A program made the position numbers and the translations under genes. Of a DNA stretch of 64,000 nt, positions 8,926 through 43,701 are shown in pieces. Under the pieces are notes generated by a model, which was not told the DNA's origin, searched no databases, and saw only the letters and a list, made by a program, of their open reading frames with translations. The first letter of the stretch is position 1, and each line of letters opens with the position of its first letter. The stretch is from Hymenopellis radicata (taxonomy: Eukaryota; Basidiomycota; Agaricomycetes; Agaricales; Physalacriaceae): NCBI GenBank assembly GCA_015501595.1, contig JADNRX010000035.1:62001-126000 (forward strand), read 5' to 3'.

Positions 8926-11900
8926 ATGGCCGTCAAGAAGACAACGTCGACCAAGAAAAAGAAGGTGTACAGGAAGAAGGAGAAGTCGGAGAGGAAGAAT
9001 TTGAAGGGTTGGATGGATGGGAAGCGCGAGGAGGTATGCGCGCCTCTGGTACCCGTGCTTGCAGACGCGCTAGAGCACGGGTGGCAGGCGGGTGAGCATA
9101 AGTTGCTGGAGATCTTCAACCTCTACCACTTTCATTTCCCGCCGACGATGCCCTTATACGAAGACCCTCCCGAGCTCAAGGAGTATGATCCCACTGCTCC
9201 CGCACCCAACTACGAGAAGGGAAAAATGCCGGAGGAGGTTGCGGAATTACGACACATCATCAATCTCCGAAACGACGTAAGTCTGAAGCACTATCTGTCA
9301 TACACGCACGCAAGGAAACTAATAAATGTTTAGATGCTGCGACGGTGGTTTAAATATCACCTTCGTGCCCTTGGAAAAGGCGTCCGTAAATTGATGCTAC
9401 GCACACCAGACGATCCCCTGGAGAAGATACTGCGTGGTATGGCCGGCCTTGATAAAGCGCCCAAGCAGCCCCATGCCGCTCACGTCTACCTAGAGGCTAA
9501 CCGGGCCGCTGTTCTGAAGGCCGCCGCCACGCAGTGGAATGCTGAGAAGGCAAAGGGCTCGTCGACAGGCGAGGCGGGGACATCAGGCGGGGGACAGACA
9601 TCATCGAATACTGGAGAGGATACGACTGGTGTGGACGCTCGCGCAGCCGACCGTACGATGGAGACGCCACACAAGTCGACCCTGCACATACGATTGATGC
9701 AAAGTCAATGGACGTAGACGAGAAACAGAGCACAGCGTCGAGGCGAAAGAGTAACGCTCCGAAAGGACCGTCCGTCACCTACACGACGACGTTGGCGCGT
9801 AAGATGTTGGCCGCCCTGCCAAAGGACGAGCAAAACCGTTACGCGGAAATGGCCAAGGAACAGGGGAACAGGGCGAAGGAAGAGCATGAACTCGCGAAGG
9901 TTGCCCCACCATTAACGGATCCTTTGGTGGTAGCCAAGTAACTGTGAAGTCTGTACGATGAAAGCCAACTAATGTTTTGTAAGGATTTCGGATGGCGCGG
10001 AGAACTTGCTCCTAGACGTAAGCCAGGGCGTCGAGAGGGTCGTTCTCCTGCGGATTTTTTCTCTGTTTGGTGGTCCTACGCATGATTCTAATGGGGAGAT
10101 GACAGCGGTTTGGTTAGTGATTGTCGATATGCTTGAAACATGAGACTAATAGACGACCGTTAGTGTAACCACGGCTAAAAACAAGGCGCCCGTACCTTTG
10201 TCGTTCGTTGATTGGCTGGGTCCGAAAAAGATAGAGGAACTGAGGATGGAATACAAGCGCTGGTTGGGGACATGCTTTACCGAGGATGAGAAGAAGGCAG
10301 TTCTGCTTCCTGACGGAGCGTCGATTGGCGCTCATACATCTGGACAAGGGAAGCCCGCGCCCGCTCGCCACATCCGGCGAAGAGTGGAAACATGGTGGAG
10401 CTTCTGAAGGGCTTACACTCGATGGACGATGACGATTCCTCTGAGTCTGACGACTCGGACAGCGATGACGACGACGATGTGGAGGATGACGATTCAGAGG
10501 ATGAGGAAGAGGTGGCGACGAAGAAGGAGAAAGGCAAGGCGCAGCCAACGCCGCGTCAGAAAGCAGTGCCGAAACAGAAGGCGACGAGTGCGAAGACAAC
10601 GCCGCCAGCGCTGGTCCTAAGTCAATACGAGGTTAATCGCAACGCAAACATGGATCGCAATCGGCGCCTATTGGCAGCGTTGAGTCACATGCAGGAAAAC
10701 AATGTCGCGCTGCCGGCAATGGAGAGCGGCGGGGGGATGGAGAGAGGGCGAGGCGGAGTTGGACGAATATGCAACCAAGCACAACATCGACGCGAACACG
10801 GTGCTTCCACCGACGTTGTTTGGCGAGAAGCCGAAAACGACGAAGCGAAAGCGTAGGGATGATGTTGGGGATAGCGGGAAGGAGAATAAGAGGGTTAAGG
10901 CTGCTGCCGAGCCAAAGATGACGAGAGCGCAACAGAAGGAAGCAAAGGAGAAGGCGGCGAAAGAGAAGGAGATTGAGAAGGAGAAGGCGCTTAAAGAAAA
11001 GGCGGCGGCATTGGAAAGGGAGGCTGCAAGGGAGAGGGAGGCTGCTATGCAAGTGCACAAGACGATGGAGGCGAAGGCGATGAGCGAGGCCAACGCGGCT
11101 AAGGTCGTAAGACCTAAACCAATTCCTACGGCTCAGCTGAAGAAGATTGCGCCTGAGAAGGAGAAAGAGGTTGACGGGGTGGGGAGCGGCGTAATGGATA
11201 ATGGCGCGATTGGCCCTGGCGGTGGGAATGGCGATATTGAGATGGCCGAAGAGAATGGCGAGGAGTACTAGGTCGCGTGAAGAAGGTATTGCCATCATCG
11301 CCGGAATGGCTGCGGGGATCGCTGGAGGAGTTTGTCGAGGCATCTGGTGCGACGAAGCTTGGAGCAATGTTCATGGCCTTGATTGAGCTGGAAAACAAGT
11401 ATATTTCAGCGGGCATCGCTGAGAAGAAAGGCGGCTTACCAGGTGCAAAGCTGCGTCCGGCTTTGGTCGGATCGTGGCTTTCCTATGGCCGTCACACTAG
11501 GGGCCACGAGCGCTGGGTGATTGACGCCGCTAGCGGGTCGAAATTTGTCGCCGATTGGAGGCTTGGTGGAAGTCGCTGCAGCCTGCATGGCGTGCTAAAG
11601 ATGACGCGGGACGTTGGAATAGGTCGTCGTATGGTGATGGATGGGGTGTGTTGTGCCATTCGGGAGTGAACGGTTTGCTGAGCGTGGCGGCGACGCTGTC
11701 GTGGTGGGGATCCTACTGCGAGGACATGGCCGGAGATGAGGAGAAATGGAAAGAAGCCATCAGGGACGTGATCTGGGTAGAGCATGCCACGAGTCTAAAC
11801 CCGGGTCCGGCGGGTCGAGTTTGCGTGAGTTTGCGTATCTGAAGTCCGGACTTGCGACTTGTCTCAAACTTGCGAGTCGCGGGTCTAAAACTCGCGAGTT

Positions 11901-12215
11901 TGCGAGTTTTTGACGAGTTTTGAGCTATAACCCACTCATATCCCTTCAACTGAGGTCAAACTAGTGCAAACATCATCTCTATAGCCTATTGCAACTCTGT
12001 TGAATCATATTCATATGTATAACATAGGTTATATGCATAATATTATATCTTTAACTGACTACCGGAACCTGTGCAAGTACTTGCGGAATGCTCCAACCTC
12101 AAACCTGCGACTTGCGCAAACCCGGGTCGCGAGTCGCGAGTCGCAGGTTACCTGCGAGTTACCTGCGCCAGCCCAAACTCGTGTCATGCTCTAGATCTGG
12201 GTGATCGAAGGCTGA
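8926..12215 (+). pseudogene. Long basic/acidic partner protein of the viroplasmin-like gene, frameshifted and hAT-interrupted
   Basis: Starts MAVKKTTSTKKKKVYRKKEK. The first exon splices at about 9276 (GTAAGT to TTTAG at 9333) into MLRRWFKYHLRALGKGVRKL. Further exons include PSVTYTTTLARKMLAALPKD, then across an intron near 9941-9983 DVSQGVERVVLLRIFSLFGG, then FVDWLGPKKIEELRMEYKRW, an acidic run, a lysine/glutamate coiled coil (about 10900-11130) and a tryptophan-rich C-terminal domain (DWR / SLQPAWR / LSWWGSYCEDM). The frame breaks at about 9640-9665, 10330-10390, 10735-10750 (a G-run) and 11560-11570, so the copy looks dead, or the assembly has indels. Removing the hAT at 11778-12193 with one target copy extends the frame to a TGA at 12213. 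The same architecture occurs in the gene at 61995, also next to a viroplasmin-like gene. Molecular role unknown. Confidence 0.6.
11778..12193. mobile_element. Non-autonomous hAT-type element, GCGAGT-word family (416 bp)
   Basis: The ends TAGAGCATGCCACGAGT and, inverted, TAGAGCATGACACGAGT form the TIRs. The target GATCTGGG is duplicated exactly at 11770-11777 and 12194-12201. Subterminal parts are crowded with TTTGCGAG / CTTGCGAGTC / GCGAGTCGCGAGT words on both sides of an AT-rich middle with no coding capacity. It sits in the last codons of the partner gene. Confidence 0.9.
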
Positions 12216-13088
12216 GTAAATGTTTGTAGTGTCGGTACAAGTTAGAATGCGAAAAAATTGGGCGCCTGATGAGGCAGAAATGCGATGAAGAGCAAAGTAA
12301 GAAACATAAGTCAGAAGAACTTAGAAGAAAAATCGAAACGACTTGGAAGATTCGAACACAAGACCGCCGGGAAAAAGTTGTCCATCGGGCACAAGGCATT
12401 ACCGTTAAGCCATGTACGCCTGAATGGGGTAGAGCGATATAGGGTAAGTGCCTTCACAGGTCACATACGGCACATATTACACTGAAAGCGTAGAAAATTA
12501 AGCGGCTTTTGTTATAGGAGCGGGGAGATAGTGGGGGGTGATGGAAACAAGGAATTGCCGGATTGGCATTCACGGATTGCTGCCCCCCGCAATACGTGAG
12601 CGGGGTACCCCAAATAGGTAATCGCGACGTCACGTGGGTCAAGCAGCATACAATGATTTTCGCGTATTATAAGGGCGGTACTCGGAAGGAGGATTTAGGA
12701 CATGTTGATCTTGGAGGGTGGTGACAAATGGGTGCCCAGCAGTGGCGCGCGCCCGGCTGCTAGCAGGACGGCGCGGGACCGGGGTGACAATTCGGCAAAG
12801 CAGTGCCGAACCACGATTCGGTAAAGCAGTGCCGAGCCACGATTCGGCAAAGCAGTGCCGGGACGAGCGCGCGCCCGCCTGCCAGAAGGAGTGCTGACAC
12901 ATCAGCCCAATGCGGATACGCACCGCCTGGGCCTAATACGTCCGCTTACCCGGGTTGGAGCCCTGGAATTCAGTGACAGTTGTCAGGCCAAAACACTTTA
13001 TTACTCCTTGACACTTGTCCCGGGAAATAGGCTAGAAATTACAGCTAAGACTCGTCGTTCGAACCTTCAAGATAGTCTACTGAGGATG
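12216..13088. other. Intergenic region with a small tandem repeat
   Basis: No gene recognised. The stretch 12285-12420 reads as a lysine/glutamate-rich helix in one frame but has no start or splice context. The stretch 12740-12890 holds the repeat described next. Confidence 0.4.
12790..12865. repeat. Three tandem 26-bp units flanked by direct repeats
   Basis: Units start at 12790, 12816 and 12842, each ATTCGGYAAAGCAGTGCCG plus a short tail (26, 26, 24 bp). Near-identical 20-24 bp GC-rich direct repeats (GCGCGCGCCCG...CTGC...) lie on each side at about 12743-12766 and 12868-12890. Confidence 0.8.
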
Positions 13089-13485
13089 CCGCTGTCGTTT
13101 GAGGTGTCCCGCCCTTCGTCCCCGACATCCCGACCACTGACCGATCGCTAAGGTATGTTTCAAACTCCAAGGTAAGTTGCTCTAATTTATCCATATCTCG
13201 TTATTTTCACAATGAATAACCGTACAGTTTTGTCATTAATGCCTTCAATACGCTCGCTCGAAGACTCCGCTGTCGTTTGGGGTATCCCGCCCACTGGCGC
13301 CGACATCCCGACCATTGACCGATCTCCAAGGTAAGTTTCTCCAATTTATACATATCTCGCTAATTTCACAATGAATAACCGTGCAGTTTTGTCATTAATG
13401 CCTTCAATACGCTCGCTTGAAGACTCCGCTGTCGTTTGGGGTATCCCGCCCTCCGGCCCCGATGTCCCGCCCACTACGATATCAT
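13089..13485 (+). repeat. Tandem repeat of an exon-plus-intron-like unit (about 160-178 bp, 2.3 copies)
   Basis: CCGCTGTCGTTTG recurs at 13089, 13267 and 13427. Each of the first two units contains GTAAGTT...CAG boundaries defining an intron-like segment of exactly 56 bp (13172-13227 and 13331-13386), followed by TTTTGTCATTAATGCC. The third copy is partial. It lies about 0.8-1.2 kb before the Ulp1-DDE start and could be its untranslated leader. Confidence 0.75.
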
Positions 13486-13726
13486 TACTTACATTTATCT
13501 ATGTACAATTCCGTAACAAATCAGTAATTTGACTCGAAATGATAACAATTGTATTCTACTTGTCCTGATCTTCCTTGGTGTGAATCTCGCTCCGATACCA
13601 CCTTTGAGGCCACTCTGAGTGTCCCCGCCGCTTCAGCTACAGGTCACATCACGTGACTCCAGTCACTTGTTTGGGCCTCGTAAGCGCCCTCCTTCCCATC
13701 CCACCACCGACTTCCCTCTTTGGACA

Positions 13727-13992
13727 TGGCGATTGCCAGTCTCGTTGCTCTGGCGCTTGCCAGCAACATCGTCTGCTCCAACTGGAGGGCCTTGTCGACC
13801 TCGGACCGCTACCTTATGGGAATATGGTGATTGCCATTTCTCCGCTGTCTGGCGATTGCCAGCAGCGAACACGGACGGCGAAGTGCGGTGGACGAGCCGC
13901 CAGGTACTGAGGACGACACTTATCGATGGATTTCGAGTGCCCGGCGCACCAGAGATTGGCGATTGCCGGTTTCTCCTCGCTGGCGATTGTCA
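13727..13992 (+). repeat. Three spaced pairs of TGGCGATTGCCA boxes
   Basis: The near-palindromic 12-mer TGGCGATTGCCA, allowing one or two changes, occurs at 13727, 13751, 13825, 13850, 13957 and 13981: three pairs, each 24-25 bp start to start, all on the same strand. The last box ends 313 bp before the Ulp1-DDE ATG. The regular spacing suggests protein binding, perhaps by the encoded transposase; this is inference. Confidence 0.75.
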
Positions 13993-16986
13993 GCGGGCCT
14001 TGGAATAGACCGCCCAGGTCATCGATACTGGCTTTTTATTACGCCGTCGAGATTGGTGGGTCGTTCTTACTTGTTTCGTTCTGATTTCAATCGTCTTTCT
14101 CCCCACCAGCTGTGTCATTCGGACTCTATACGAATACCCGGTCTCGTCATTGGTAAATCGATTTCATTTCCTCTTAACCTGGTAAGTCGGTCTTTTTCTA
14201 CATTGGTCGACTAGCTCTAATCATATATATATAGCCGCTTCGTTCTTGCGTCGCGAAAACATGCAGCGTACATGACCTACAAGCCCTTGCCTTCCTCCCA
14301 TCAGAATGGATCGTCTTGAGATCCCCTTTGATATTGAGGATGCCATTCTGCCTCCCGAAACATTGCCTGTTCCAGAGTTTATTACCTTTGAGATTGCACC
14401 ACCTCCGTCAAAATCCCTTCCATCACCTCCTGCACTCTCTGATCGCCCGCCAACAATTGGACTTGACCATCTGATCCATCACATCCCACCTCCATCTACC
14501 GACGTATCCCGAATGCGCGCGGAAATCCTCCTTCCTAGCTGCACTGCGACATCAATCGCAATCATTCGACCTGGTCGTGAGGAGCACCCATCTTATTATC
14601 CCCTCTGGGCAATCACGTATTGGGTGCGCCTTGAGCCTGTCCGTCAAGCCAAAAAGGAATGGGCAGAGGCGATGCATCACCTGCAAGGTCTGAACCATCA
14701 GTTCACGGCGAAGCAGACAGCCGAGACGGAAGCCTTACTTGATCGCGTCTATGACACCCTTCACTCGCTTCCGTGGGCAGGAACTATCCATGGCTTCAGT
14801 GTAGACCTCCAGATGGTGTATCTATCATCATACCTATCAACTAGGTGGTTGACCGATGAGCATGAAGGCCAAATGTTGGGGTTGCTCGAGCACGACATCA
14901 TCATGTCGGGCCAACGCCGCTCAGTCATTATCGAGAACACACTGTTCACCGAAAAGCTCAAGGCATCCTATGCGGCTCGCGACGAGTACCACACGTCATC
15001 CGCGTACAAGTGGCCGAAAGGTCGAGGAGAAGATATGGCGGGAACCGGGCGTAACAAGCTTGGTACGATCGCCCATACAGGAGGTAACCATTGGATTGCA
15101 CTTGTTATCGACTTCGGGGCAAGTATCGTGTACTTCGGCGATTCGCTGGGTGGGCCGCTAAGCGATGAGCTGTGGAGGTGTATTGATTGGTGGACGCACG
15201 TACATACAGACGCGCGCTTCATGCTTCAGGCCATGCCGATTACAAAACAGACCGACGGCTTCTCTTGTGGTATTCTGGGATGGAATGCCCTCTGCGGGTT
15301 CTTCCTTGGATGGCGTCTTCTCTCGGGAACAATGCGGGCAGTCCTTGATGAGCGGATGAAAGTTTTTCTGCGCATTGTTCAGTGGCATAACGAACGAGTA
15401 AGTGAACTTGCCTACCGATTGACTGATAGCTAATTCAAGTTCCAGATGTATATACCTGCAAACACGTCTGAGAGCGACGACCACAATATGGATGATGAAC
15501 TTACAAGCTCGTCGCCATTACCAGTAACAGAATCATCATCACCTTTCCCTAGTACTCCCCCGTCGTCCCAGACGCCACTCCCATTATCTCCGTCACTCCC
15601 ATCGTTGTCTCCATCTCATGCTATGAGTATAGCTTCGTCACCAGAAACAATTCAGATCACTCCCTCGCGATCTGCGAAACGAATGCTAAGTGATCGAACA
15701 ACACCACCAAAAAGCCCCTCCGAGAAGAAACGTACTTGTCTTTCAGTACAATCAACAACGCGGAAGGGACTTGAACGTGCCGAACTTGGGCAGGTCAAGC
15801 GTGGAAGTGTCCTTAACTTTTTTAAAGTCACAACAAAGGACGGCTATTTGAACGATCAAAAGCGGGAGGCTGAGCGCGACGCTATAACCAAGGAAGATGT
15901 TCGCTTACGAGAAAATCGCAGAGCAGCTCTGGATGACGAGAAGACGAAGGTTGGTGCGAGGGAGAGAAAGAGGAAACAGCGCGACAAGCAGAAGTCAATT
16001 GAGATTGCCGCCGGAGAACGGACGCCGAGTGGTAAGAAAGTGGGCAAGGTAAGAATTCAACTGTAAATGATACGTGACGAGCTCACCATTTAATCAGATT
16101 CGCATGATGGAGCTACAAGGATCCGACATACCACCTGAGCTGGCCATACATCCGTCGCGCAGCATACACGACCGGCACGCACAATCGCAGCTAAACCAAA
16201 AAAGAAGAAGGTTTCCGGGCGCCCCACGACCAAGATTCCACGCCCAGCCGTCTACCATAACTATCTCAACCCATTGACATGGATCCAGATCAGGCTTGCA
16301 GGCCTTGACGCTGGCTGGCAGATGAGTCCCGCTGTGATTGTACGCTCCTTGTTGGCCCGCGATTCATACACCTTCGCCGGGATTTCGCCGAGCACTGTCC
16401 GTGACTGGATTGACAGACGTGGTGAGCGGCCAGTGTGGAAGGCATCTGTTCTTCAACGCGCGAATGTAACACCTGGTCATAACAAAGGCGGAAAGCGTGG
16501 AGTTCTAGTAAGCCTCTTGTTAATTTCAAAGCTGAAGTTTATGCTCACCTGCAACGATAGGCCAAATATCCCGCCGTAGTTGCCATTTTGACAACACGCT
16601 TCAAAAAACTGCGCGCAGCGTCGGCACCTATCACTGTCGTCACAGCGCGCGGTCTCATCGTTGCAACCATTCTTGAATCAAATCCCGAGATCTTCGACAA
16701 AGTCTTCCGTGACGGCTCCAAGTTCAAGGTGTCGGACTCTTACGTGCGTGGATGGCTCCAGGGCGCGTTGGGTTGGTCGCGGAGAAAAGCAACTCGAGCA
16801 GCGCAGAAGTTACCCGCCGACTGGGAAGCTCAATGCACCAAATCATTCTTTCGAAAGGCATACAGTATCAAAGAGTACGACATACCACCGTCACTCTTTG
16901 CCAATTCCGATCAAACACAGATTGTTTATGCACCTGGTGACAAGATGACCTGGGCGGAGAAAGGAGCGAAGCAGGTCACTCTTGTG

Positions 16987-18286
16987 TAGTGAACAGCCCG
17001 GGTCGGCCGGGGGTATTTAATCCTGACCCCGACCCTGACCCGCGACTTTACCCGACCCGCCAGTACGGGTGCGGGTCACCCGCTCATAGACCCACGGAGT
17101 ACGGGTCACCCGGCACCCTTAACACCCTTCACCTCTAGGTAGTATTTTCGTGCGCGCCGACGACCCCCGGGCAATTGCACGGGGGTTATCGACGAGCACG
17201 ATACATGCATGCTCAGTCCCGGCTGCTTGAACGAACAAGAACCGGGCTTGAACAGCATGTGGGTGGGTGGGGAGGAATACATGGCGGGGGATGGTGATGT
17301 CAGGCGCATCGAGACAACGCCTCTGAGACGATACAGCTACAAGTACGTTATAAAGGAATGAATGTGAAGCAAAGAAAATTCGCACCATGATGCGTCCGCG
17401 ACGCCGTCGCAGTCCAGACTCTCTATCCAACTAAACACCCTCCATCCGCCAAATCCAACGGGAAGGAAACAATGAAAAGTGAAACAAATGCGCACCGTTT
17501 GGGGGCTGGAAGCGTCCGCGATGCCTTCCAGCCCCAAAAATCAACCCATTGCCTCGTTGGAGACAAGCGAGACAGCGCGGGGGGCTCATCCAGCCTCTTG
17601 AAGCCCATCGTCGTCATCCAGAGACGTTGCAGCTCCGTCAAGGAGGCTTACGCGTCGTATTTTCAAGGGCGCGGTGATCTGCGCGCAGCCGCAGGGGCTC
17701 CAAGTTCGCCCAGACCATCCAGTCGTTATGCAGCCTCATCTAGAGGGCTTACGCGTGTCGGATGCGCATCGATTTGGTGCCGTCGTGCAGACGAGCCCCA
17801 GAATGCACCCCGGAACGTATCCGAGGGCGCAGCGGCCGGCGCAAAGCCGAACCGCGCCAGACAAGCAAGAGATCACAGAGAATACAAGGAGAATAAGCCC
17901 CAGAATAAGTTCTGGGGCCGACGAGCACGACGTTCGCGTCGTGCTGTGATGGTAAGAGGGTAAGAGATAGTGATCAGAGCTGACCGATCGTTATCCGGCA
18001 ATTGCCGAGATGGTCGGCCAGCTCGGCGATCGCGGAAATTCGTGCGCAACGTCGTTTCTCGATGACGTTGCTGTTATTTGAGTCCAAAATTTTTTGAGAA
18101 ATTCCATAAAACATAGATATTTACAATGGGCAACTACTTGCCTCAAAGTCCAAGACTGCATTAAATAGCAACGGGTCACAAAGGGTGATGCGGGTCACCC
18201 CGGGTTCTTGGATCGGTACCCCGACCCGTACCCGCATGCACCCACCCGCCACCCGGACCGGGTGGGCCGACCCCGGCTGTTCACTA
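16987..18286. mobile_element. Non-autonomous hAT-type element A, GGGTC/CCCG-word family (1300 bp)
   Basis: TIRs TAGTGAACAGCCCGGGT and inverted TAGTGAACAGCCGGGGT. The target CTCTTGTG is duplicated exactly at 16979-16986 and 18287-18294, inside the transposase codons VTLV. Both subterminal zones consist of GGGTC / ACCCG words. The interior contains a CCCCG-GCAATTGC-CGGGG palindrome (about 17166), the block CCCCGGAACGTATCCGAGGG (about 17808) and a CCCCAGAA/TTCTGGGG hairpin, all shared with elements B, C and D. No transposase is encoded. Confidence 0.93.
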
Positions 18287-18507: not shown

Positions 18508-18731
18508 CACTACGGAGGATGGGCCGGGTTCGGCACGTTTTAGTCACGTTTTAGCGACGGGAACACACCGGCTGTTCCCTGTGTGAAAAACACACCGAAA
18601 ACTTTTGACCAGCCAATCAGAATGCGGCACAACCAGTTTTCAATGTGTTTTTGGGCGATCAACAACTCGGTGTTTCCCATGTGTTTCTACACTGTTTTTT
18701 GACAATTGAACCCGGCCCACTCTCCATAGTG
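18508..18731. mobile_element. CACTA-type MITE (224 bp)
   Basis: Begins CACTACGGAGGATGGGCCGG and ends with the inverted counterpart (inverted CACTATGGAGAGTGGGCCGG). The 3-bp target TAT is duplicated at 18505-18507 and 18732-18734. Removing it with one TAT rejoins the transposase codons REY and VER. CACTA ends and a 3-bp duplication are the hallmarks of the EnSpm/CMC superfamily. The interior carries GTGTTTT / AACACA words and no coding region. Confidence 0.92.
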
Positions 18732-19897: not shown

Positions 19898-20680
19898 AAG
19901 TGTACAGTACTCGAAACGTACATCTATCATGCTTCGTTATCGACTTCAGCGCAAGTCTCAGTGGATCCGTTAACCGATACAACACAAGCCTTCGATATGG
20001 TACTAGCAGAGAAGAACAAGATGAAGAATACTCGGGGCCATAGACATGGAACCAGTGTTGTCATTAAGGTCCTAATTAAGACCCAGATTTTTGTGAAGGT
20101 CTTAAACATTAACAAGTCTTAATTAAGACAGCACGATTTAAGTCTTAATTAAGAGTGGCAGTGCAAGGTACAGACCAGAGTTATATTCCTCCCCGGAGCT
20201 GTTAAGTTTGCCATTGTTAGGTGGTTCATCAGAATACATGACCTGTAGAAGCTTCATCAGTCGTTCCTGCTCACTGAGAGCCTTCTGCTGGTGGTTGCGC
20301 ATCGACTACTTAGCTGTGCCGATCAGCTAATGGTCAGGTGACTCAAGCCCTTTAAGACTTAAGAAGGTCTTAAAGCTCTTCCCAACTTTGTTAAGACTTA
20401 ACACTTAGGTCTTAATAAGGGTTAAATGCATTTAAGACTTAACTCTTAATGACAACACTGCATGGAACACGAGACCAGGATGATGGAGAGTTCTGGGCAG
20501 AGCTACGTGAATTTCTTCAATCAAATCGATATCCTACTCGCCTCGTGACAGATGATGAACGCCTACGATTCTTGAAACGTTCGCGCCGATTTGTGATGAG
20601 AGAAGGTCGAATGTGGCTTCTGGCAAAAGCAAACTCGGGAAAGATGCCGCGCCTAGTCATCACCGACTTCGAAGATGGCG
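19898..20680 (+). pseudogene. LTR-retrotransposon pol fragment (integrase N-terminal region), split by a hAT
   Basis: A coding fragment around TVLETYIYHASLSTSAQVSV and TTQAFDMVLAEKNKMKNTRG is continued, after removal of the element at 20053-20460, by DDGEFWAELREFLQSNRYPT, RFLKRSRRFVMREGRMW and KMPRLVITDF. This resembles the segment just before the zinc-binding region of fungal Gypsy-type integrases. The frame runs through the target site (codons HGT-RDQ). It is cut off at about 20670, where the inverted duplication starts. No start, reverse transcriptase or catalytic core is present here. Confidence 0.5.
20053..20460. mobile_element. Non-autonomous hAT-type element, GTCTTAA-word family (408 bp)
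   Basis: TIRs CAGTGTTGTCATTAAG at both ends in inverted orientation. The target CATGGAAC is duplicated exactly at 20045-20052 and 20461-20468. Both subterminal zones are built from GTCTTAA / TTAAGAC / CTTAATTAAG words. No coding region. Confidence 0.93.
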
Positions 20681-23500: not shown

Positions 23501-23607
23501 GCAAAAACCTCTCACCAGCGTGCATTTTGCCCATCACCGCCGGTGTCTCCACAGCCCAGGCATCCCCAGAGAGCAGCAGGCACACGACTGGAAAAGGCAA
23601 GCCCCCG

Positions 23608-27822: not shown

Positions 27823-28154
27823 GAGTAGGAATATGATCCAGACAAATGTCTACTCATCAACAACCACAAGAAATCCAACGTCGAAGTCGTCTTCTCGGCA
27901 GTGAGCAGCTCGCAGTGTGAGCGCTTCTGCTTACTGCGATTCAACCGTAATGAAGGGCTTGATTTAAGTCGTAAGTTCAAAAAGTGCGGTTAGTGAAAAG
28001 CACGGGTACGGGTCACCCGGTCCGGGTTCGGGTCGGGTTATGTGCCGGGTAGGGGTCGGGTGTCGGTCCGAGTACCCGTCGGGAACCCGGCAACCCGTTT
28101 CAACCCGTGCTAGAGATCAGCATGAGTGGGACGTGCGGGTTTGGTGTGGCAAGT

Positions 28155-28990
28155 TAGGCTCGGGTCCATCCGCTTCGCAATCACGTGGCTGCGCTGATCA
28201 CTATTGCGAAGCGGCTGGTCTCACTCAACCCCGATTTGGCGGATGCTGCCAAATCAGCCACCGCACTTTTCCTCGACGGACCACTTTTCTCCCAAAAAAA
28301 AGTAAAAAGTTCAAGAAACGAAAAGTCGTTTTTTCGTCGTTCTGAGTCGAACGCCAATAGCCAGAAAATACTTTTTATAAAAATTTTTTCTGACTACTTA
28401 GTACTCGTCGTAACTTTCATCGAACCGATCGACGTCAGCTCCGTCAAAACCACCTTCCTCTAAATCGTCTTGGAGGGCGTCATCGAATATGAAGTGCGAC
28501 TCATCAATATCCATGTCCAGCGCGACATCCTCGGCCCTATCTCGCGTCAATGTTGGTTTATTAAGTCATTATTGTGTAGTCAGTCATTATTAAGTGGTAG
28601 AGAACCTACCTAGTCGCGACAATGTACGGCGGTGAACGACCAAACCTCCTTGAATGTTGAACGTTGAACGTCTATGGGATCTGGCTGGGCGAGCCTTGCA
28701 TTCCCAATCAGGATGACAGCCCCTAAGCCCTGTCTGCTCAAAGTGGACAATGTTCAAAAATTCAGAAAAAAATTTATTTTCTGGCTATCGGCGTTCGACT
28801 CAGAACGACGAAAAAACGACATTTTGTTTCTTGAACTTTTTACTTTTTTTTGGGAGAAAAGTGGTCCGTCGAGGAAAAGTGCGGTGGCTGATTTGGCAGC
28901 ATCCGCCAAATCGGGCTCGTTTGTTTCCAGCCGCTTCGCAGTCGTGATAAGCGCAGCCACGTGATGCGAAGCGAGCTGGTCACGAGCCTA
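28155..28990. mobile_element. Long-TIR element with 9-bp target duplication (Mutator-like signature)
   Basis: Starts TAGGCTCG and ends CGAGCCTA, with inverted repeats extending about 230 bp inward (28155-28385 against 28755-28990). The 9-bp target GTGGCAAGT is duplicated at 28146-28154 and 28991-28999. The intact site is visible in element C near 36345-36357. Long TIRs and 9-bp duplications are typical of MULEs. The interior keeps a minus-strand coding remnant. Confidence 0.85.
28388..28672 (-). pseudogene. Coding remnant inside the long-TIR element, resembling a hAT transposase C-terminus
   Basis: On the minus strand, STFNIQGGLVVHRRTLSRL is followed by a GTAGGT...GCGAG intron-like gap (about 28614-28548) and an acidic tail (DRAEDVALDMDIDESHF) ending with TAA near 28390. 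The pattern F-x-GGL-x-V-x-R-x-LS resembles the dimerisation (hATC) region of basidiomycete hAT transposases. Either captured sequence in a Pack-MULE-like element or a remnant of the element's own transposase; short, so tentative. Confidence 0.35.
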
Positions 28991-29082
28991 GTGGCAAGTA
29001 TATACCAACTTATTACCAAGTATCTGCTTACTGTTGACTATAGATTTTCATAGATTTTCTTGGATTTATTTGGGCTCAAAAT

Positions 29083-30334
29083 TAGAGGGAGGCACGAGTG
29101 TATACCCGGGTGCACCCGACACCCGCGCGACAAGTATTTGCGTCGTCAAGGCCGGACTTGCCACCTGGCAGCACACCCGGGTACCCGCAAGTACTTGACC
29201 CGCGGGTCAAGTACTTGGCAAGTACTTGCCTAAATGACAAGTACTTGGCAAGTACGGGTGGCCAAGTACTTGTCAAAGTCAATGAATTTTTTCATGCCCG
29301 TCGATGATCCCCGAGCAATTGCGCGGGGTAAGTCGACGTGCATGATTCATCTTGCTCATGCCCCGGGCTTGTGTAAGGACAAGAACCGGCACTGAACAAG
29401 ATGAGGATGGGAGGAGTAGGAATGTTGTCGGGTGAAGATGGCGTAACAATGAGGGCGAGGATATGGCTGCGTAACAGATGGCCGGGCCGAACGCGACCGC
29501 TGTCGTTGTGGGGCGCAGGAAAGAGACGGAACGGGTGAGATGACGCGGCGAGAGATATGCGACCTGGGTTTGAAGTAACCGGGTGAGGACATCCCGTCGG
29601 CGCGTTGGGATGATGGTGGAATACGGCGGCGGCTGGGGCAGAAATATCACTAGGTCAATATGCGACATCAATGAGAAAAAAAAACACACCTTTAGGGCTG
29701 CATGCGTCTACGCGACGCCATGCAAATCCGAATGACAGGGCGCCGTCGCAGAGACGCGCCTGAGAGATCACATCCGAGGGCAGCAGCGGCCGGCGCTGGG
29801 ACGCATAAGTATTCTTGTCGCAATGCCGCCTCTGTGAGGGCTTACACGGTCCAAAGGCAGTCCACACGGCGGTCTAAGTAGCGCCGTCGCGCAGACGAGC
29901 ACTGGAAAGCGCCCCGGAACGTATCCGAGGGCGCAGCGGCCGGCGCGAAGCCAAACCGCGGCGGGAGAGCGAAGCAACACCAAAAGAACAAGTCAGAGAG
30001 GCCCCAGAAAATTTTCTGGGGCCGACGAACACGACTACGACGTCGTGCTGTGGTGGGATGAGGCAAGAACCAAGATCGGAGCAGATCGATCGTTATCCGG
30101 CAAGTGCCGGGACGCTCGGCCAGCTCGGCGATCACGGATATTCGTCCGCAACGTCGTTTCTGAGCGACGTTGGGCTCGTTTGAGGCCAAATAAAATTCAA
30201 TAAATTTTGTAAAATACATATATACCTACCTGCAAGTATTAGGCAAGTACTTGCCACAAATACTTGCCTCGCCAACCTCGTACTTGCCACCCGTGCACCA
30301 CCCGGGTGATGCCGATACTTGCGAATACTTGCAA
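29083..30334. mobile_element. hAT-like element D, CAAGTACTTG-word family, 3' end lost, nested in B
   Basis: Comparison with element C shows foreign DNA between GGGCTCAAA and TGAGCCTAAC. It begins near TAGAGGGAGGCACGAGTG and both flanks are packed with AAGTACTTG / CAAGTATT words. Its interior contains CCCCG-GCAATTGC-CGGGG (29309), CCCCGGAACGTATCCGAGGG (about 29912), the CCCCAGAA hairpin and the TCGTTATCCGGCAA stretch also found in element A. No 3' TIR or target duplication is visible, so that end is probably deleted. Confidence 0.75.
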
Positions 30335-31346
30335 GTGAGCCTAACGTCGTTGAGCAACGGCGGTGCGAACACATATCCGCGATCGCCGAGGTGGTCGAAC
30401 GTCCCGGCAATTGCCGGATAACGATCGGCCAGCTCTGATCTCCATCTCTTGCCTCTTACCATTACAGCACGACGTTAACGTCGTGCTTGTCGGCCCCAGA
30501 ACTTTTTCTGGGGCCTGTCTGACTTGTTTTCTTTCTTCTCCTTCGCTTTTCCTGTGCGGTTTGGCTTCGCGCCGGCCGCTGCGCCCTCGGATACGTTCCG
30601 GGGCGATCTTTGGCGCTTGTCTCGGTGACGGGGCTCCTGCGTATGGATTTGGACGGTGTAAGCCCTCGCGACGAGGCCGCCACACCTGGATAGCGAGTGT
30701 GCACACTTGGCAGCCGGATCTGCCCACCTGCTCGCATTTTCTCGCGCGTGCGTCGCGACGACAATCAGGACGTCGACGACAACAACAACAACGACCGCGT
30801 TCAGGCCGTCGTACTCCTTGCGGACGCGGGCGCTTCAATGACAACGCCCAGGACGACAACGACAATGACAACTACAAAATCCAAGGACTACTTATTCGCG
30901 CTCTGCGACCACGAGTCAGACTAGGGGCTGGACGGCGTCGCGGACGCGTCCCAGCTCAAATGGTGCATTTTTTGTATTCTAATCTATTCATTGTGGCTTA
31001 TCTTTGCGTGCACGCAGCCCCAATGCCACATCGTGGTCCGCTCATCGCCGTCACCTTCTCCTCACGTCGTCTCTGCCCTCACCATCATCCCGTTCGTGCT
31101 CCCCACCACTGTCCCAGCTATCGTGCACGTCGGACAGCCCCTGCGCAATTGCTCGGGGGTCGGCGGCGGGCACGAAATGCCTCTCTATTCCTCGCGGGTG
31201 CGGGTACACCCGCCACCCTTCTCGTACCCGAGGGTAAAATGACGGGTAACCCGTACCCGAGCGTCGGGTGCGGGTATAGCGTCGGGTTCGGGTCGGGAGT
31301 GCTCACGAGCACCCGTACCCGACCCGTGCTATTCACTAAGTGCGGT

Positions 31347-32747: not shown

Positions 32748-32752
32748 GCGGT

Positions 32753-33043: not shown

Positions 33044-34817
33044 TATTTTTGATAGGTCGCGGTACAACACTTCGACATTGACTACAACAATCTCGACGAT
33101 CGCACTAGCTGGAACCCTGGGTTTGATTAGCCTAGTCTAGGACGACCGTCTCCTCTCTATTTCACGAAACTTTGCTTCATTTTACCTCTATATAATCTAC
33201 AACTCGAATAATGTCTTCTACGGATTTCCGGAGAACAAGCCGAATGGACAATGTGTCACCCACGAATGGTGACCGTGTCAAGACGGCACAAGGTATGCAA
33301 ACAGTCGACGATAATGTTATTGACCACGTATTACAGCAACGAACCGGTAGACGTACCGGTGATAATCCTTTCCACACTCCAGCTAGGGATGTCCTTGAGA
33401 CTCCTAGTCTGCGTACTGGCTCCGTCAAGATGGGGAGCCAGGAGATCCCCGAAAGGGAGAAGTCCAAGACGGATATGGCCACTGCTTTGGAGAGCAGCCG
33501 TTCCTTGGACCACGGTCGTGCACCGTGGGGCGACAATGATGATCATCGCCCATGGACGCCGGTCTCAATGCGACATCGGCACAGCCGTAGCACCAGTACG
33601 GCGAATGTAACTACACACGGTAGTCCCAGTAATATCCTAGGTAGATCTATAAAAAATAGATTTAGTATATTGAACCCGGAACAAGACACCAATGTTCAAC
33701 CGGAGAAAGAAATTTCCCAGGAAGTGCAAGAACAAGTTAGGAATCATACTCGAGTAACATCCAATCCGGATGCTAGTGATGCTGACTTTGAGCACCAAGA
33801 CCGTGACACGAGCCTCAAGCAGAAGAATCACGCCAAATCGCGCCAGCCGAAAGCGGTAAAGAACTTTTACCACAGAAGGAAACATGACGATTCCTCAGAG
33901 TCGGAACCAGTCAAGAAGAAGCGGGCACAAACAAAGCGCAAGAGAAAGGCCAGGGAAACCTTAAGCCCTTTCAACCAGATAGCCCCAAATAGTCATTTGG
34001 CTCGTGCGTTGAAATCTACAATGCCAAGAAAGTCATCAAGAACAGTACCCGACGAAAGCTCGGACAGCAGCTCGGATGAGCACTCACGTGGGCGTGACTC
34101 GCACAATCCCAGTCCAGGATCCCCTCCAGATTCATCGGACTCGGATAGTCCCAGTCCCAGTTCAACCAGCTCCTCGGAGACGTCCAGCTCAGACTCTGAT
34201 GTAGGTGTTAAATACCGAAAGAAAAGGCACAAGAAACAACACGTCCATCGACCCGTGTTGAAGCCGGATGCACCAGACAAGTACGACGGGGAACCAAATC
34301 TTCGAACCTTCATGAAGTTCGTCACGGACGGAGCAGCATACGTCCGCGACGGCCATGTTCCCAAGAAGGATCAAGTCCGGAAACTCACACATTTCTTGAC
34401 CGGCATAGCACACGATTTCTATGTGTCTACGGTAGCCGATAATCCACGGCGATGGCGGCTGCACAAGTTCTTTGTTGAATTATACAACTACTGCTTCCCG
34501 TTAACGTTTCGTCTCGATCAACGCAAGAAATTAGAACGTACCGTACAAGGCAACCGTACTGTACGGCAGTATATGGCGGAACTACGCGAATTGTTCAATA
34601 CAGTTGGAATCATTGATGAACGGGAAAAGGTTCACAAACTTTGGTCAGGCCTGAACACAGAAATTCAGCAAGGTCTATGGCGAGATCGGCTCAACCCGGA
34701 GATATCTTCGTACAAGAAGGTGGAGCACCATGCCGAAGTGATTGAACACATCGAGAATATTGCCGCCGTGGAAGGATCGTCAGATGACGACTCGGACAGT
34801 GGATCTGAAAGAACAGC

Positions 34818-36024
34818 TAGTGAGTAGCGCGGGTGTCCCGAGGGTATTTCGGTTGGGACCCCTACCCGTACCCTCGACTTACCCGGTCCCGCAGTGCGGG
34901 TGCGGGTTACCCGCCAGAATGGTTGCAGGTCTTACTCGGCCAGCACTACCACCTTGCCATTACCTCCCAGGATTCATGCTCAGCGAGCATCCCCGGGCAA
35001 TGGCACGGGGACAGTCAGCTGAGCATGAGGGCAGGGTGGTAGGAGGTGAGGTGGGAACAGCAATGAGGGAGGGAAGTTGAGGGAAGTGGTGGTGGTGGTG
35101 GTGGTGTTGTCCTTATCGTTGACTCGTCATCCGCGTTGCATCCATCCTCACGTCCGTCCCCTCCTCGGGTCCGCCTCCTCCTCGTGTCGCGTCCATCCCC
35201 GCGTCTGTCTTCTCCTCGCGTCTGTCACCTCTGCATCACATCTTGCCTGCGCCTCCACCTGTGCTCTGGGAAATGACACTGTAGAGATATTAGCGCAAGT
35301 CTAGACCACGTAGAAGATGGTGATGCACAGCCCGTGTCGCGGGGAAGCAACGGTGCCCATACATCCAAAGGCAGACCTGACGAGTCGACTGGCGTGTCCG
35401 ACGTAACATTCTGCCAGTCCACGCCTTCCGGAGGGGGTTTAGTCGATGCAGAGTCAGATGTATCCGCGATGGCGCTGGCCGACATGGAGACCGAGTCGTC
35501 GGACTATTCCCAGTCCTGGTGCTGCCCGTTTTCAGGGGGCTTACGCGTCGTCCTCTGGTCGGTTAGACAACTCTGGGTCGTCCGCTGGTCCATTGACGCC
35601 GACTTAAAGTCGAGCGCCGGTGCTACCATCGCCGACATAAAGTCGAGCGATGGTGCCGTGGTCGCCGACTTGAAGTCGAGCGACGGGTGGTGATCATGGT
35701 GGAGGGAGGATGCAAGATAGACACCCCGATCGCACGCTTACGCGTCGCGTCGGAACTCGGCCCGGTACGCCGGATCAGGCAAAATTGTCGTGTATGCCTC
35801 GTTTGAGCCATGCAAGGCTCCATTTTACTTGCAATAAATTTTTAAATTAAGCCTAAATACATCTTGATAATTGCGTGTCACTGGGTGAGGACTCGCAGTC
35901 CGTTGTACGGGTAAGAAAGGGTGACGCGGGTTACAGCGGGTTCTCGGACCGAGACCCTTACCCGGACCCTGACCCACCCGCATCCGTGACCCGGACCGGG
36001 TGCTCTGACCCGGGCTATTCACTA
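34818..36024. mobile_element. Non-autonomous hAT-type element in gag, site 1 (1207 bp)
   Basis: TIRs TAGTGAGTAGCGCGGGT and inverted TAGTGAATAGCCCGGGT. The target AGAACAGC is duplicated exactly at 34810-34817 and 36025-36032. Words GGGTC / ACCCG fill both subterminal zones. The interior has a CCCCGGGCAATGGCACGGGG palindrome-like core (34991), a GTG microsatellite (35086-35106) and repeated CTTACGCGTCG. Confidence 0.93.
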
Positions 36025-36189
36025 AGAACAGCAGATGGATCAGATTCCAATGCGAATTCAAACAGTCCAGACTCACACTCAGAATCCGATGAAGATGCGC
36101 ACAATGAAAGCGGCTTGAGGAGCTGGTCATCTCGATTTGGACCATCTAAAAGTGAGATAGATATCCTTCGAGCCGCCGGAAGGTGTTTC

Positions 36190-37426
36190 TAGTGAAAAGC
36201 ACGGGTACGGGTCACCCGGTCCGGGTTCGGGTCGGGTTATGTGCCGGGTAGGGGTCGGGTGTCGGTCCGAGTACCCGTCGGGAACCCGGCAACCCGTTTC
36301 AACCCGTGCTAGAGATCAGCATGAGTGGGACGTGCGGGTTTGGTGTGGCAAGTATATACCAAGTATCTGCTTACTGTTGACTATAGATTTTCATAGATTT
36401 TCTTGGATTTATTTGGGCTCAAATGAGCCTAACGTCGTTGAGCAACGGCGGTGCGAACACATATCCGCGATCGCCGAGGTGGCCGAACGTCCCGGCAATT
36501 GCCGGATAACGATCGGCCAGCTCTGATCTCCATCTCTTGCCTCTTACCATTACAGCACGACATTAACGTCGTGCTTGTCGGCCCCAGAACTTTTTCTGGG
36601 GCCTGTCTGACTTGTTTTCTTTCTTCTCCTTCGCTTTTCCTGTGCGGTTTGGCTTCGCGCCGGCCGCTGCGCCCTCGGATACGTTCCGGGGCGATCTTTG
36701 GCGCTTGTCTCGGTGACGGGGCTCCTGCGTATGGATTTGGACGGTGTAAGCCCTCGCGACGAGGCCGCCACACCTGGATAGCGAGTGTGCACACTTGGCA
36801 GCCGGATCTGCCCACCTGCTCGCATTTTCTCACGCGTGCGTCGCGACGACAATCAGGACGTCGACGACAACAACAACAACGACCGCGTTCAGGCCGTCGT
36901 ACTCCTTGCGGATGCGGGCGCTTCAATGACAACGCCCAGGACGACAACGACAACGACAACTACAAAATCCAAGGACTACTTATTCGCGCTCTGCGACCAC
37001 GAGTCAGACTAGGGGCTGGACGGCGTCGCGGACGCGTCCCAGCTCAAATGGTGCATTTTTTGTATTCTAATCTATTCATTGTGGCTTATCTTTGCGTGCA
37101 CGCAGCCCCAATGCCACATCGTGGTCCGCTCATCGCCGTCACCTTCTCCTCACGTCGTCTCTGCCCTCACCATCATCCCGTTCGTGCTCCCCACCACTGT
37201 CCCAGCTATCGTGCACGTCGGACAGCCCCTGCGCAATTGCTCGGGGGTCGGCGGCGGGCACGAAATGCCTCTCTATTCCTCGCGGGTGCGGGTATACCCG
37301 CCACCCTTCTCGTACCCGAGGGTAAAATGACGGGTAACCCGTACCCGAGCGTCGGGTGCGGGTATAGCGTCGGGTTCGGGTCGGGAGTGCTCACGAGCAC
37401 CCGTACCCGACCCGTGCTATTCACTA
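36190..37426. mobile_element. Non-autonomous hAT-type element C in gag, site 2 (1237 bp)
   Basis: TIRs TAGTGAAAAGCACGGGT and inverted TAGTGAATAGCACGGGT. The target GGTGTTTC is duplicated exactly at 36182-36189 and 37427-37434. It is almost the same sequence as element B apart from B's nested inserts, which makes C the reference for locating those inserts. Confidence 0.95.
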
Positions 37427-37572
37427 GGTGTTTCCAATGTAAGCAATACGGACATATCGCGCGAAACTGTCCACAGGGATTCGCGGCGAAAGAACCAGAA
37501 AGTATTGAACCGGCGAAAATTCAGATTTCGGGAGTAACCTTCGACATGGAAGAATTGCGCCGGCTCTCTGCC

Positions 37573-38811
37573 TAGAGACTGCCACGGATCGTGAACCGGA
37601 TCGATCCGCGATCCGTTTCACGGATATCCGTGGCCTCAAACACCAGACCGTGACCGTCCAACGATCCGGATCGCCTACAGGATCCGATCCGTTAGGCGAT
37701 CCGATCCGCGGATCGTGGCACGGTTCCGACTCGCGGATATCCGTGGGTGAGAAGCATTTTTCGTCGCGGCGCGGTCCACTCAAAGGAGTGAACCACATAC
37801 CTACGACGAAACAATGGTGGATGGGGAGTGGATGGGGAGTGGAGAGGTAAGATCTGGGTAAAATTAAAGTAATACATCAATTGGGTTAGTATACACGAGC
37901 TATACGTACCGCAGAATCCAACACACGTCTAACAAGCCCGATCCGGATCTGTAGGAAGATAAATGCCTGCTTCAACCTATTAATGGTGTCGTTCGAGTAC
38001 ACCAATACGAAATACGCACCTGGCGGCGCGGCGTCGTCTGCAGACGCGCCACGCCCATATTCCCGCTACCTCCGCTCTTGAAGCCTGCTCAGCAGCAGGG
38101 CAGAGGCGTCTCCCATGGTGTTATGGCCTCTTGTAGTCGTTTTCGTTCTCCTGCGTCGCGTGCTGCCCTTTTGAGGGAGCTTTGAACCGTTGCTACGGCC
38201 TCGTGGCCCTAGCAACGGCCTCTGGAATCGTCCTGGCCCTCCGGTGGGGCAGCCACAGGTGGTGGCAGTCGATGCTGCTGTTGGATCGCAGCACGGCAAT
38301 CGTCGTGACGGCTGTCCTGTCTTTGAGACAGGACAGAAGAGACGGCAACGACATGAAGTCGTTCCCATCACCGAACGACTTGAAGTCGATTCGGCAACCA
38401 GACCGATTTGAAATCGCGTCTGGTTGGCGGTGTTGGGCGGGCAGCGCGAGCGAGCTGCGAGTCGGAGGGAGTGAGAGGCATGGTGGAGGTGGAGGAGAGA
38501 GTGATTCGATCACTCGGGATCAATTACTGATCCCGAGTGATCGAGCTGCGACAGCAGAGATGCTCAACGACGACCTCAAATTCAAGACGACCTCAAATTT
38601 CTTGAATTTGAGGTCGTCGTTGAGCGTCTCTGCGTACGGATCGCGGACGGATCAGTGACACGGATATCCGTGGTCACCTCAGCCTGACCGTAACCCGTGC
38701 CGCGATCCGGATCGCACAGATCGGATCGCATTTTTCTGATCCGATCCGCGGATCGAGTCGGGGATCGGGTGGCGGATATCCGCCGATTTACCCGATCCGT
38801 GGCAGACTCTA
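37573..38811. mobile_element. Non-autonomous hAT-type element in gag, site 3, GATCCG-word family (1239 bp)
   Basis: TIRs TAGAGACTGCCACGGATCG and inverted TAGAGTCTGCCACGGATCG. The target TCTCTGCC is duplicated exactly at 37565-37572 and 38812-38819. Subterminal zones are dense in GATCCG, CGGATC and GATATCCG words (37583-37745; 38635-38800). Confidence 0.95.
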
Positions 38812-38849
38812 TCTCTGCCAGCTCTCGGAGCAATCCAGATAACCGATGA

Positions 38850-39922: not shown

Positions 39923-39924
39923 TA

Positions 39925-41278: not shown

Positions 41279-42831
41279 GCGGTGCATTTGTACCAGGCCG
41301 AGAAACACGTCGGGAATCAGACAAGGATACGCGAGAAGGAAAGCAGAAGTTTGGCGTAGGGATCGCTATAGATGTATGTGTACCGTTGTTCTATCTGACT
41401 GAACTGGCACTGACACCCAGCAGCCTGGCAACGACCTCCCAAAACCGCAGTCAGCGACACCTCCTCGACACACACCCTCACCCTCCTCGACTGTCCACCT
41501 AGGGTACTCCCTTAAGAACCCCCCGCAGGACGATGTGGCTCCTCAAACATCACCCTCACCTCAAACGGATAAGACGATCCTCCCGTCATCATCCAAGGCA
41601 GTTCCCCTCGCACTCGACGACCACCCCACCCCACTCGACTCCTCACCCAGCCTGTCGTACGACTACATTAAGACCAGAACCAACGGCCCGCCCACCATAC
41701 TCCTCCACTCCCCCCACTCATGACGGTTAACCCACCACTACCGATGGATCCGCCGCTGCATCCCGCCGCGCCGCATGCTTTGCGGACGACGGCAGAGCCA
41801 GGAGCGCAAAGTCAGCCCTGATCCGAACAACCCGCCGAGTCCCGGCCTTGAAGGCGGAGGCGGCTGAGCTGCATGGGTATGCTCAGGAGGTGGTGAAGCG
41901 GGGGCGTTGTGGGCGTGCCAAGGACACCGGCCGTCGTAGTGCGTGTCGGCGCGACGCATCGCATATGGCTCGTGCCGCACCTTGACTGGCGCCGTGCGCT
42001 ATGCTTCGATGTCGATCTCAAAGAGGACGACGTGGCTGTGCGCATTGGGCGCTTCACAGAGCGGTTAAACCCTCATATGGCATCGACGACGATGAACAAG
42101 ATTGCGTTCAAGTCCAAGGTGGTGTCCCGTGCGCATGCAGAGGTCTGGTGCGAGGCGGCGCCAGGCGTGTTTTATGTGCGCGATACGAGGAGTATTAGTG
42201 GAACATTTCTCAACCATGTCAGGTTGAGTCCGGTGAGTGTATTGCGCGACGGAGATATTGTGCAGTTTGGAGTCGACTACCAAAGTGGGACGGAAGATAG
42301 TTATAAGAGTGTCAAGATACGGGTAGAGGAGGGTCGGGAATGGCAGGGTGGGAGGAATGCGTTCAAGTGAGTCCTTTCTGCAAAGTTTCTACTCCACTAA
42401 CGGCTCTCTAGTACGAATGCGTTGCTTGAAGAGTCTGGCTGCAGCACCTGTATAGGTCTCCAAGTCTGGTTCAAGCAGCAGCAAGTCGAATATACCGGCT
42501 GTATTTGTGCGTACTTCTCTTGCCTCGAGATCATCTATTGACATCTCCTTCAGGTATATTCACTGTGTCTATACGGCAAGCGCTTTTCATCGTGCCGTGC
42601 TCACACACATTCCACTACAAATGTATTCGACCGTTGTTGGAGAACCACCACCCTGCGTTTACGTGCCCGCTGTGCCGAACGTTTGCAGACCTTGAGGAGG
42701 ACGTAGAGGTTGAGGTAGGCATCTATCGCCTTTCATATTCTAAAAACTAAATATTTTTATCAGGTCCTTGAGCAGGAGGAAGAAGCACTAGACTCTGACG
42801 CAGACGACGAGGCCGACAAACCCGCTACGCC

Positions 42832-43701
42832 TAGAGTTTTAGGGTCCGGTCCGGTCCGGTCTTAACACCCGAATTTGGAAAGACCAAGGACCGCAACCGG
42901 TCCTAAACTTGCTATTTTTCGAGGAACCGGGACCACAACCGGTTCAAGACCAGGACCGGTTGCACACCCGGTCTTTTGGCGGTCCGCAACCGGTTGAAAC
43001 CGCTAATGGTCGCAACCGGTTGAGACCAGTCCGGACCGAACACGGTTACTCAAAAGATTACAGTAGTCAACACTATAGTAATACAACTACAGTGAGAGAG
43101 TGCTTCCAGAATACTTGAACAGTGTCCGGAGTCATTCTGAGCACTTCTGTATTCTGTTCAGTCTACAGAGTAGGCCAAATTAGGACATGATCAGATATCT
43201 AGTAGACGTCTGCTGCTGCTGCAACCAATACTGCATGAAATATTATACTTCCAGAGAGTGAAATGTTCGTTTTTGGGAGCTGGATTTAATGGGATTTAAA
43301 TCGGATAGCAGTTCATTACCAAATTAGGCAATAAAACGTGATTTAGCGTGATTTCACCTGTATTTTATTGATTACTCATGCATTATGACCTCTACAAATA
43401 TCAACCCAGACACTATCCGGTGCGGAATTCACTGCTCTACAATTCGTACACTCACACCCAAGTCCAAAAACCACTGTGTAGCTCATAAACTAGCATATAT
43501 ACCTGTTTTAAGCGAAAACCCGGTTGCAACCGGTCCCAACCGGTCCTACCCGGTTGCAGATAATCTTAGAATGGCCCAGGACCGTCAACCGCAACCGGTT
43601 GCAACCGCCAACCGGTCCGTCTCACAACCGGTCCTAAACGGTTGCAGTCCGGTCCGGTCTGCGGTCTTTTGCGGTCTTTGCAACTGGACCTGTAAACTCT
43701 A
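42832..43701. mobile_element. Non-autonomous hAT-type element, ACCGGTT-word family (870 bp)
   Basis: TIRs TAGAGTTTTAGGGTCCGGT and inverted TAGAGTTTACAGGTCCAGT. The target GCTACGCC is duplicated exactly at 42824-42831 and 43702-43709, and occurs once in the intact paralog near 25161. Both subterminal zones are built from GGTCCGGT, CAACCGGTT and GGTTGCAACC words. No coding region. Confidence 0.95.

Follow-up and report, generated by a model that had tools for sequence, protein, structure and literature searches.

The 64,000-nucleotide stretch of Hymenopellis radicata DNA analysed here (contig JADNRX010000035.1; hereafter the window) contains eight hAT-type elements whose ends are packed with copies of a short word. 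The eight elements are five families: A (CGGGT), B (CGGAT), C (CGAGT), D (TTAAGAC), and E (CGGTT/GGTCC). We consider it likely that the arrays are putative sites for the BED-type fingers of family-specific hAT transposases and that the elements are Ds2-like and non-autonomous. We infer that the finger binds the word, and that each transposase moves the elements whose word matches its finger. Ac/Ds and Hermes already illustrate the principle; what is unusual is the diversity of the words, and so many words and fingers side by side make this genome an especially favourable test case. The agaric was sequenced as strain IJFM A160 (PMC8480192), and genome searches covered an assembly of 75.5 Mb in 1405 contigs.

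Each of the eight elements listed in a first-pass annotation, which was made from the sequence alone, has an exact 8-bp target site duplication (TSD) and matching terminal inverted repeats (TIRs) at the coordinates given below. When the 64 kb were scanned de novo (criteria: exact TSD, tips with at most 3 of 14 mismatches, length 150-6000 bp), the same eight elements and no others were returned. Together they cover 10025 of the 64000 bases. All eight start with TAGAG, TAGTG, or CAGTG, a short TIR of the form YARNG, which is the hAT TIR consensus.

Four of the elements, all eight of which are given on the plus strand, share the TIR TAGTGANNAGC and CGGGT words, and form family A. The element at 16987..18286 (1300 bp; TSD CTCTTGTG, TIR TAGTGAACAGC) holds its words within 150 bp of either tip, the element at 34818..36024 (1207 bp; TSD AGAACAGC) in about the outer 100-150 bp, and the element at 36190..37426 (1237 bp; TSD GGTGTTTC) has 13 and 14 words in the outer 150 bp of its two ends. 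The fourth, at 27991..31338 (TSD AGTGCGGT), has CGGGT arrays at both outer ends and is broken by two nested insertions, neither with an assigned strand. One is an 837-bp insert at 28154..28990 with the ends TTAGGCTC/GAGCCTA and an exact 8-bp duplication, GTGGCAAG; the other, at 29083..~30336, is a truncated element of a further family, F, with the tip TAGAGGGAGGCACGAGTG and CAAGT/CGGGT words, whose second tip is missing. Without the inserts an element of about 1.2 kb is left that is 99% like 36190.

The remaining four elements belong to one family each. The family C element at 11778..12193 (416 bp; TSD GATCTGGG, TIR TAGAGCATGNCACGAGT) carries its CGAGT words within roughly 150 bp of the 5' tip and 100 bp of the 3' tip. 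In the family D element at 20053..20460 (408 bp; TSD CATGGAAC, TIR CAGTGTTGTCATTAAG) the TTAAGAC words are confined to about the outer 105-115 bp. The family B element at 37573..38811 (1239 bp; TSD TCTCTGCC, TIR TAGAGNCTGCCACGGATCG) has CGGAT words in the outer 200 bp, and the family E element at 42832..43701 (870 bp; TSD GCTACGCC, TIR TAGAGTTTNNRGGTCC) carries its two words, CGGTT and GGTCC, within about 190-215 bp of the tips. The annotation had said that the word differs in every family; this describes five families with five word sets, but the eight elements are not eight families, since four share CGGGT. The words are also better spelled CGAGT, CGGGT, TTAAGAC, CGGAT(C), and CGGTT/GGTCC than in the annotation.

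Word density was compared with two controls. The statistic was the largest count of any one word in both ends, with the first 16 bp of each omitted, against 200 dinucleotide shuffles. For words of five and six letters (k=5 and k=6), the observed maximum was reached by none of the 200 shuffles in any of the eight elements; for k=7 this held in five of the eight, and the maximum was reached by 1, 3, and 6 of 200 shuffles for 27991, 34818, and 36190, respectively. At k=5 and k=6, the annotation's refuting condition of a word density no higher than in shuffled sequence thus fails for all eight. The second control comprised 204 non-element intervals of 468 bp from the window, whose k=5 maximum was 13 and next highest value 10. 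Six elements (16-26 words) exceeded all of these intervals, and 34818 (12 words) was lower than one of them. Element 11778, with 9 words, showed no excess over the 204 ordinary intervals; a clearer family C array is found in a copy elsewhere in the genome (L062, 10 AACTCG). The window also contains a further dense array outside the eight elements, at 49600-49790, with 9 copies of AAGACC/GGTCTT in 200 bp. No complete element with a TSD was found around it, and it may contribute part of the background in the ordinary intervals.

The anatomy of the arrays was studied in 16 elements from nine families (32 ends), with families F, H, I, and O taken from outside the window. The words are almost confined to the outer 100-215 bp; a few ends have one or two extra words at 200-300 bp, and the 14 interiors measured contain 0 to 0.33 words per 100 bp. 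Counted from the tip, bp 13 is where the main word starts in 21 of the 32 ends; this register is seen in six of the nine families, which use four different words. The word as defined starts further in for D, E, and F, but their tips close with TTAAG, GGTCC, or CGAGT. The inner part of the TIR is normally the first copy of the word. Tandem neighbours with a period of 6 are frequent in family A. Paired palindromes, an idea prompted by CAAGTACTTG, CGGATATCCG, and the Hermes quasi-palindrome, found no support as the general unit: the 16 elements have 83 tandem neighbours versus 41 and 40 in the two inverted orientations.

In the genome the TIR patterns matched 240 times for C, 143 for F, 49 for A, 26 for D, and 20 for E, and the same patterns read backwards had no match for any of the five. 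The C matches divide into 121 and 119 on the two strands; most of those among the first 100 listed form pairs with a spacing of about 416 bp, a pattern that a recent burst would leave. Among the densest arrays met are those of a 1032-bp element at C631:55019-56050 (L070; exact TSD GGCCAGAA), whose two ends of 250 bp together hold 22 CGAGTC words.

Words are more conserved than the spacers between them. In 18 copies of family A (one of them coding; 27991 and 36190 are nearly identical and hence not independent), words differ at 0.071 and spacers at 0.400 of positions in the 5' end, and at 0.099 and 0.441, respectively, in the 3' end. Repeated words attract each other in alignments, and for this reason we passed neutrally mutated copies of one 5' A end through the same pipeline. 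These neutral runs also give word-to-spacer ratios below 1; however, the ratio was at least 0.48 in all 30 runs, versus 0.18 observed. Family F (seven copies, several 99% alike) has 0.053 for words and 0.270 for spacers at one end and 0.054 and 0.209 at the other. Family D (five copies) has 0.049 and 0.333 at the 5' end; its 3' end (0.093 and 0.164) is the least clear. In the coding A elements most word positions match the consensus, whereas the spacers match at about half of the sites; C48 matches the A consensus more poorly at its 5' end, where its alignment has a gap.

These comparisons bear on the possibility that the arrays are passive, having grown at the ends by slippage or gene conversion and been inherited within each family without any function. 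The words are short, period-6 tandem neighbours are common in A, members of a family share ancestry, and the alignment effect just described acts in the same direction. Passive growth would nevertheless have to yield a ratio that no neutral run approached, preserve word positions in coding elements whose spacers have drifted, and let the array begin at bp 13 in each of six families; we regard it as very unlikely.

The word positions of families A and I were compared in eight pairs of ends. The score of one pair was reached by none of 300 block shuffles and that of another by 3 of 300, and for the six other pairs by 9-80 of 300, which is at most suggestive of positional homology.

The hAT dimerisation domain (PF05699) matches at 70 places in the genome, and coding elements that bear it and have the same ends were found for families A and B. 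On C491 (4472 bp), C654, C889, and C48 there is a complete coding A element flanked by an exact TSD, and both A ends are also present on C710. The copy A_L020 matches C491 with 93% identity along 134 bp at one end and 83% along 146 bp at the other, and its interior is unrelated. For family B, C658 carries a hAT gene between ends 90% and 89% identical to those of 37573. The non-autonomous copies keep the ends of a coding element around an unrelated interior, which makes A and B candidate Ds2-type pairs. The designation of the elements as non-autonomous hATs is borne out by the 8-bp TSDs, the TIRs, and, for two of the five families, by coding relatives with the dimerisation domain and the same ends.

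Around the hAT domains, 30 loci were inspected for a 3' tip with words: 18 have a plausible one, six have none, and six are doubtful (nested small elements or simple sequence), under a search rule that itself required a word near the tip. Besides CGGGT, the words beside hAT genes are GGGGT-type, CGGTA, GGGCT, AAGAC, CGAGT, CCGTA, and CGGAT; the GGGCT tip is backed by two copies with different flanks. For the putative RNase H-type catalytic core with its insertion domain, related stretches align between the hAT coding loci. Inserted small elements account for the arrays found next to hAT domains on C365 and C631, and for one array on C816. An I-like transposase on C540 lies within F tips (7991-16574) and was considered as the F partner, but was rejected: it has a CGGTC array of its own and is therefore read as nested in the F tips. 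The gene's own tip was not reached in the stretch examined. It is not supported as the partner of E either, as the sole exact E tips in the genome lie off C540.

A CCHC finger motif with a predicted strand-strand-helix fold lies upstream in the A-type and I-type genes; on C491 it reads WKCELCGKNVYRNLTSKDKSSGHGLRLHAEKC. In Hermes, base contacts are made by residues 63-67 and 70 (PMC10368747), and we aligned the finger loops to Hermes by eye. The A-type loops are SSGHGLRLH (C491), SSTSGLRSH (C889), SSGSELKNH (C48), and SSTSGLRLH (C654 and C710); the others are NSPSNLRSH (C1122), NSPSNLRTH (C508), NSSGRLRMH (C540), and GSTSNLGRH (C658). No finger was found in the stretch of C503 examined, and the motif search gave no convincing match in C480, C751, C811, and C958. 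A sequence search of solved structures returned one chance match. The near-identical loops of C1122 and C508 pair with the overlapping words ACGGTA and TACGGT. Three A elements have Tyr after a conserved Val, and in these the base before GGGT is C in 59 and G in 3 of 75 words; in C654 and C710, which have Gly or Ser there, it is C in 26 and G in 18 of 55 words, and their four ends all have GGGGT as the tip word. By aligned position, C is kept at 12 (C654) and 18 (C710) of 28 positions versus 19 (C889), 21 (C48), and 22 (C491) of 28, with one gap each in C889 and C48. The change from Tyr to Gly/Ser with that from C to G is clear in the raw counts and weaker by aligned position; it is a single evolutionary contrast and at most a lead.

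In the mechanism that we propose, the transposase of each family would recognise the word through a BED-type zinc finger at its N-terminus. Beyond the first copy, further copies would extend the array over about 100-215 bp, in family A at positions that are kept, and several fingers of a multimeric transposase would bind several words, so that the right ends are chosen and their pairing is aided. Copies would spread only while their words are readable; words would then be kept while spacers drift. Where a transposase lineage changes its finger, the arrays that work with it would carry a different word.

Several observations weigh against this proposal. The zf-BED profile scored 12.1 bits in one relative (Pfam cut-off 20.6) and the Hermes DNA-binding domain 14.9 in another (cut-off 20.5); a genome search with zf-BED gave no matches, although its control also matched nowhere. 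The structure model is poor (pLDDT 42). The tips on C658, C710, and C1122 (two tips, with CGGTA words) have no matching TSD. The annotation had proposed a search for the autonomous partner of each family; coding partners were found for A and B, and none for C, D, and E. CGAGT is common to the tips of families C, F, H, and O, so that one word is not always one family. In maize, Ds-l elements with AAACGG copies are not excised (PMC3260210); words are thus at least not sufficient. Finally, mutating the inner repeats of Hermes leaves about 70% of its activity, and the authors deem further transposase binding at these repeats unlikely (PMC10368747).

The last point also suits a reading in which the words bind a host factor, such as a DNA-bending or replication protein, that only aids the pairing of ends: host DNA-bending proteins have been proposed to act in Hermes pairing, where the inner repeats are thought to be free of further transposases (PMC10368747). 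A host factor would, however, favour one word, whereas many words coexist beside different hAT lineages in this genome, and the TIR passes without a break into the first word. We consider this reading unlikely. The arrays could also serve the pairing of homologous copies, as the annotation had suggested, or silencing, for example with dense CpG as a target of methylation; differences in the word would then reflect descent. CpG is present in most of the words (CGGGT, CGGAT, CGAGT, CGGTA, CGGTT), some families have repeated words over at least 100 bp on both sides, and the CAAGT of family F is what deamination of CGAGT would be expected to produce. The words TTAAGAC and GGGCT, in contrast, lack CpG, and the words of A copies are conserved and not decayed; for pairing of homologues, no observation here calls for it. 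Such a role seems to us very improbable.

Recognition by family-specific transposases has close precedents. In the Ac/Ds system of maize, about 200 bp at each end are needed and subterminal AAACGG copies bind the transposase; Ds2 elements keep the ends around filler interiors and have the 4.5-kb Ac as coding partner (PMC3260210). The elements described here resemble Ac/Ds2 in the 8-bp TSD, in word-bearing ends of about 100-215 bp, and, for families A and B, in interiors unrelated to a coding element with the same ends. Unlike Ac/Ds, which has one hexamer in one family, many families with different words share one genome here, and the inner TIR is itself a copy of the word. In Hermes of the house fly, a CCHC BED finger reads subterminal repeats, the first of them beside the TIR, and about 220 bp of each end are needed in cells (PMC10368747). 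The first repeat adjoins the TIR in our elements as well, and the reading by a finger that is known for Hermes is putative here. The Hermes AAG(T/C) repeats are sparse and asymmetric (17 in one end and 14 in the other), whereas several A ends have 8-14 words per 150 bp.

Diverse motifs, often with CGG, were measured for BED-Hermes domains of hATs (CGGBP-type), and for four hAT proteins the motif agrees with the subterminal regions of the same element (PMC8097297). Those measurements span animals and one fungus and mostly concern host genes, while the series described here comprises transposon families of one fungus, known from their sequence. Kat1 of Kluyveromyces lactis, a hAT-derived transposase, has TIRs with a repeated hexamer between them (PMC4763223); it is likewise fungal and of hAT type with a repeated short word, but it is domesticated and confined to a single locus with six exact repeats. 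Searches of open-access papers, which covered titles and abstract openings, brought up no description of these Hymenopellis elements. Given the same arrangement in Ac/Ds2 (PMC3260210) and the diverse BED motifs already measured (PMC8097297), the earlier description of the arrays as a lineage-specific elaboration was too strong. The earlier idea of family-specific recognition arrays is supported by the anatomy and by the conservation of words over spacers, with binding itself putative.

If fingers and words do co-vary, the genome would hold a natural series of matched pairs of BED finger and DNA word, some almost the same and others without any relation. The recognition code of BED fingers, about which little is known, would become directly testable, the way in which coexisting hAT families keep their non-autonomous copies apart would be explained, and the non-cross-reacting pairs of transposase and ends could be useful tools for laboratory gene transfer.

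Families A and F combine related interiors with different arrays. Element 36190 (A) is 80% identical to F elements over 390 bp, starting just inside the left array, and 93% over 59 bp that stop at the inner edge of the right array. Between the arrays, similarity does not clearly exceed that of block shuffles in 16 end comparisons (16-158 of 200 shuffles reach the score), but the 17-bp tips are still related, being equal at 13 of 17 positions by eye. Either both arrays were exchanged, or both diverged together beyond recognition. What appears to be the same non-coding interior between two different array sets is new-looking. We tentatively entertain the possibility that the arrays are an exchangeable address. 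Word positions would be kept as a scaffold, the word and the finger's recognition loop would change in concert (CGGGT to a C/GGGGT mixture with Tyr to Gly/Ser; NSPSNLR with ACGGTA-type words), and interiors would be re-addressed by a new pair of arrays, as in A and F; at present this seems rather doubtful.

Next to the array at 49600-49790, at about 49840-49950, the window contains the sequence ACTGTAGTATT...TAGGTTC.CGTCACAGGT, with GGTCAC/GTTCAC words. It occurs in inverted copies around the C1122 element (L064 1-400, and the flank beyond the I element) and also in L032, and is possibly one more family with its own arrays.

Other mobile sequences in the window include a gag-like open reading frame (ORF; Retrotrans_gag, E 1.2e-6) at 33211-34827, which continues into element 34818, and, within 36451-37575, a stretch resembling a CCHC knuckle after the element ending at 37426; elements 34818, 36190, and 37573 all seem to lie within one retrotransposon gene region. 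A Copia-type retrotransposon at 44262-49120, probably young, has long open frames of 320 and 1318 amino acids (RVT_2, rve). A fragment of a DDE_1 (pogo-type) transposase lies at 18645-19172 (E 2.3e-6). Local duplication in the window is indicated by two cases of similar ORFs: an FHA-domain gene that also occurs as a shorter copy (23520-24695 and 41909-42370), and an unnamed pair (21332-21865 and 26624-27154).

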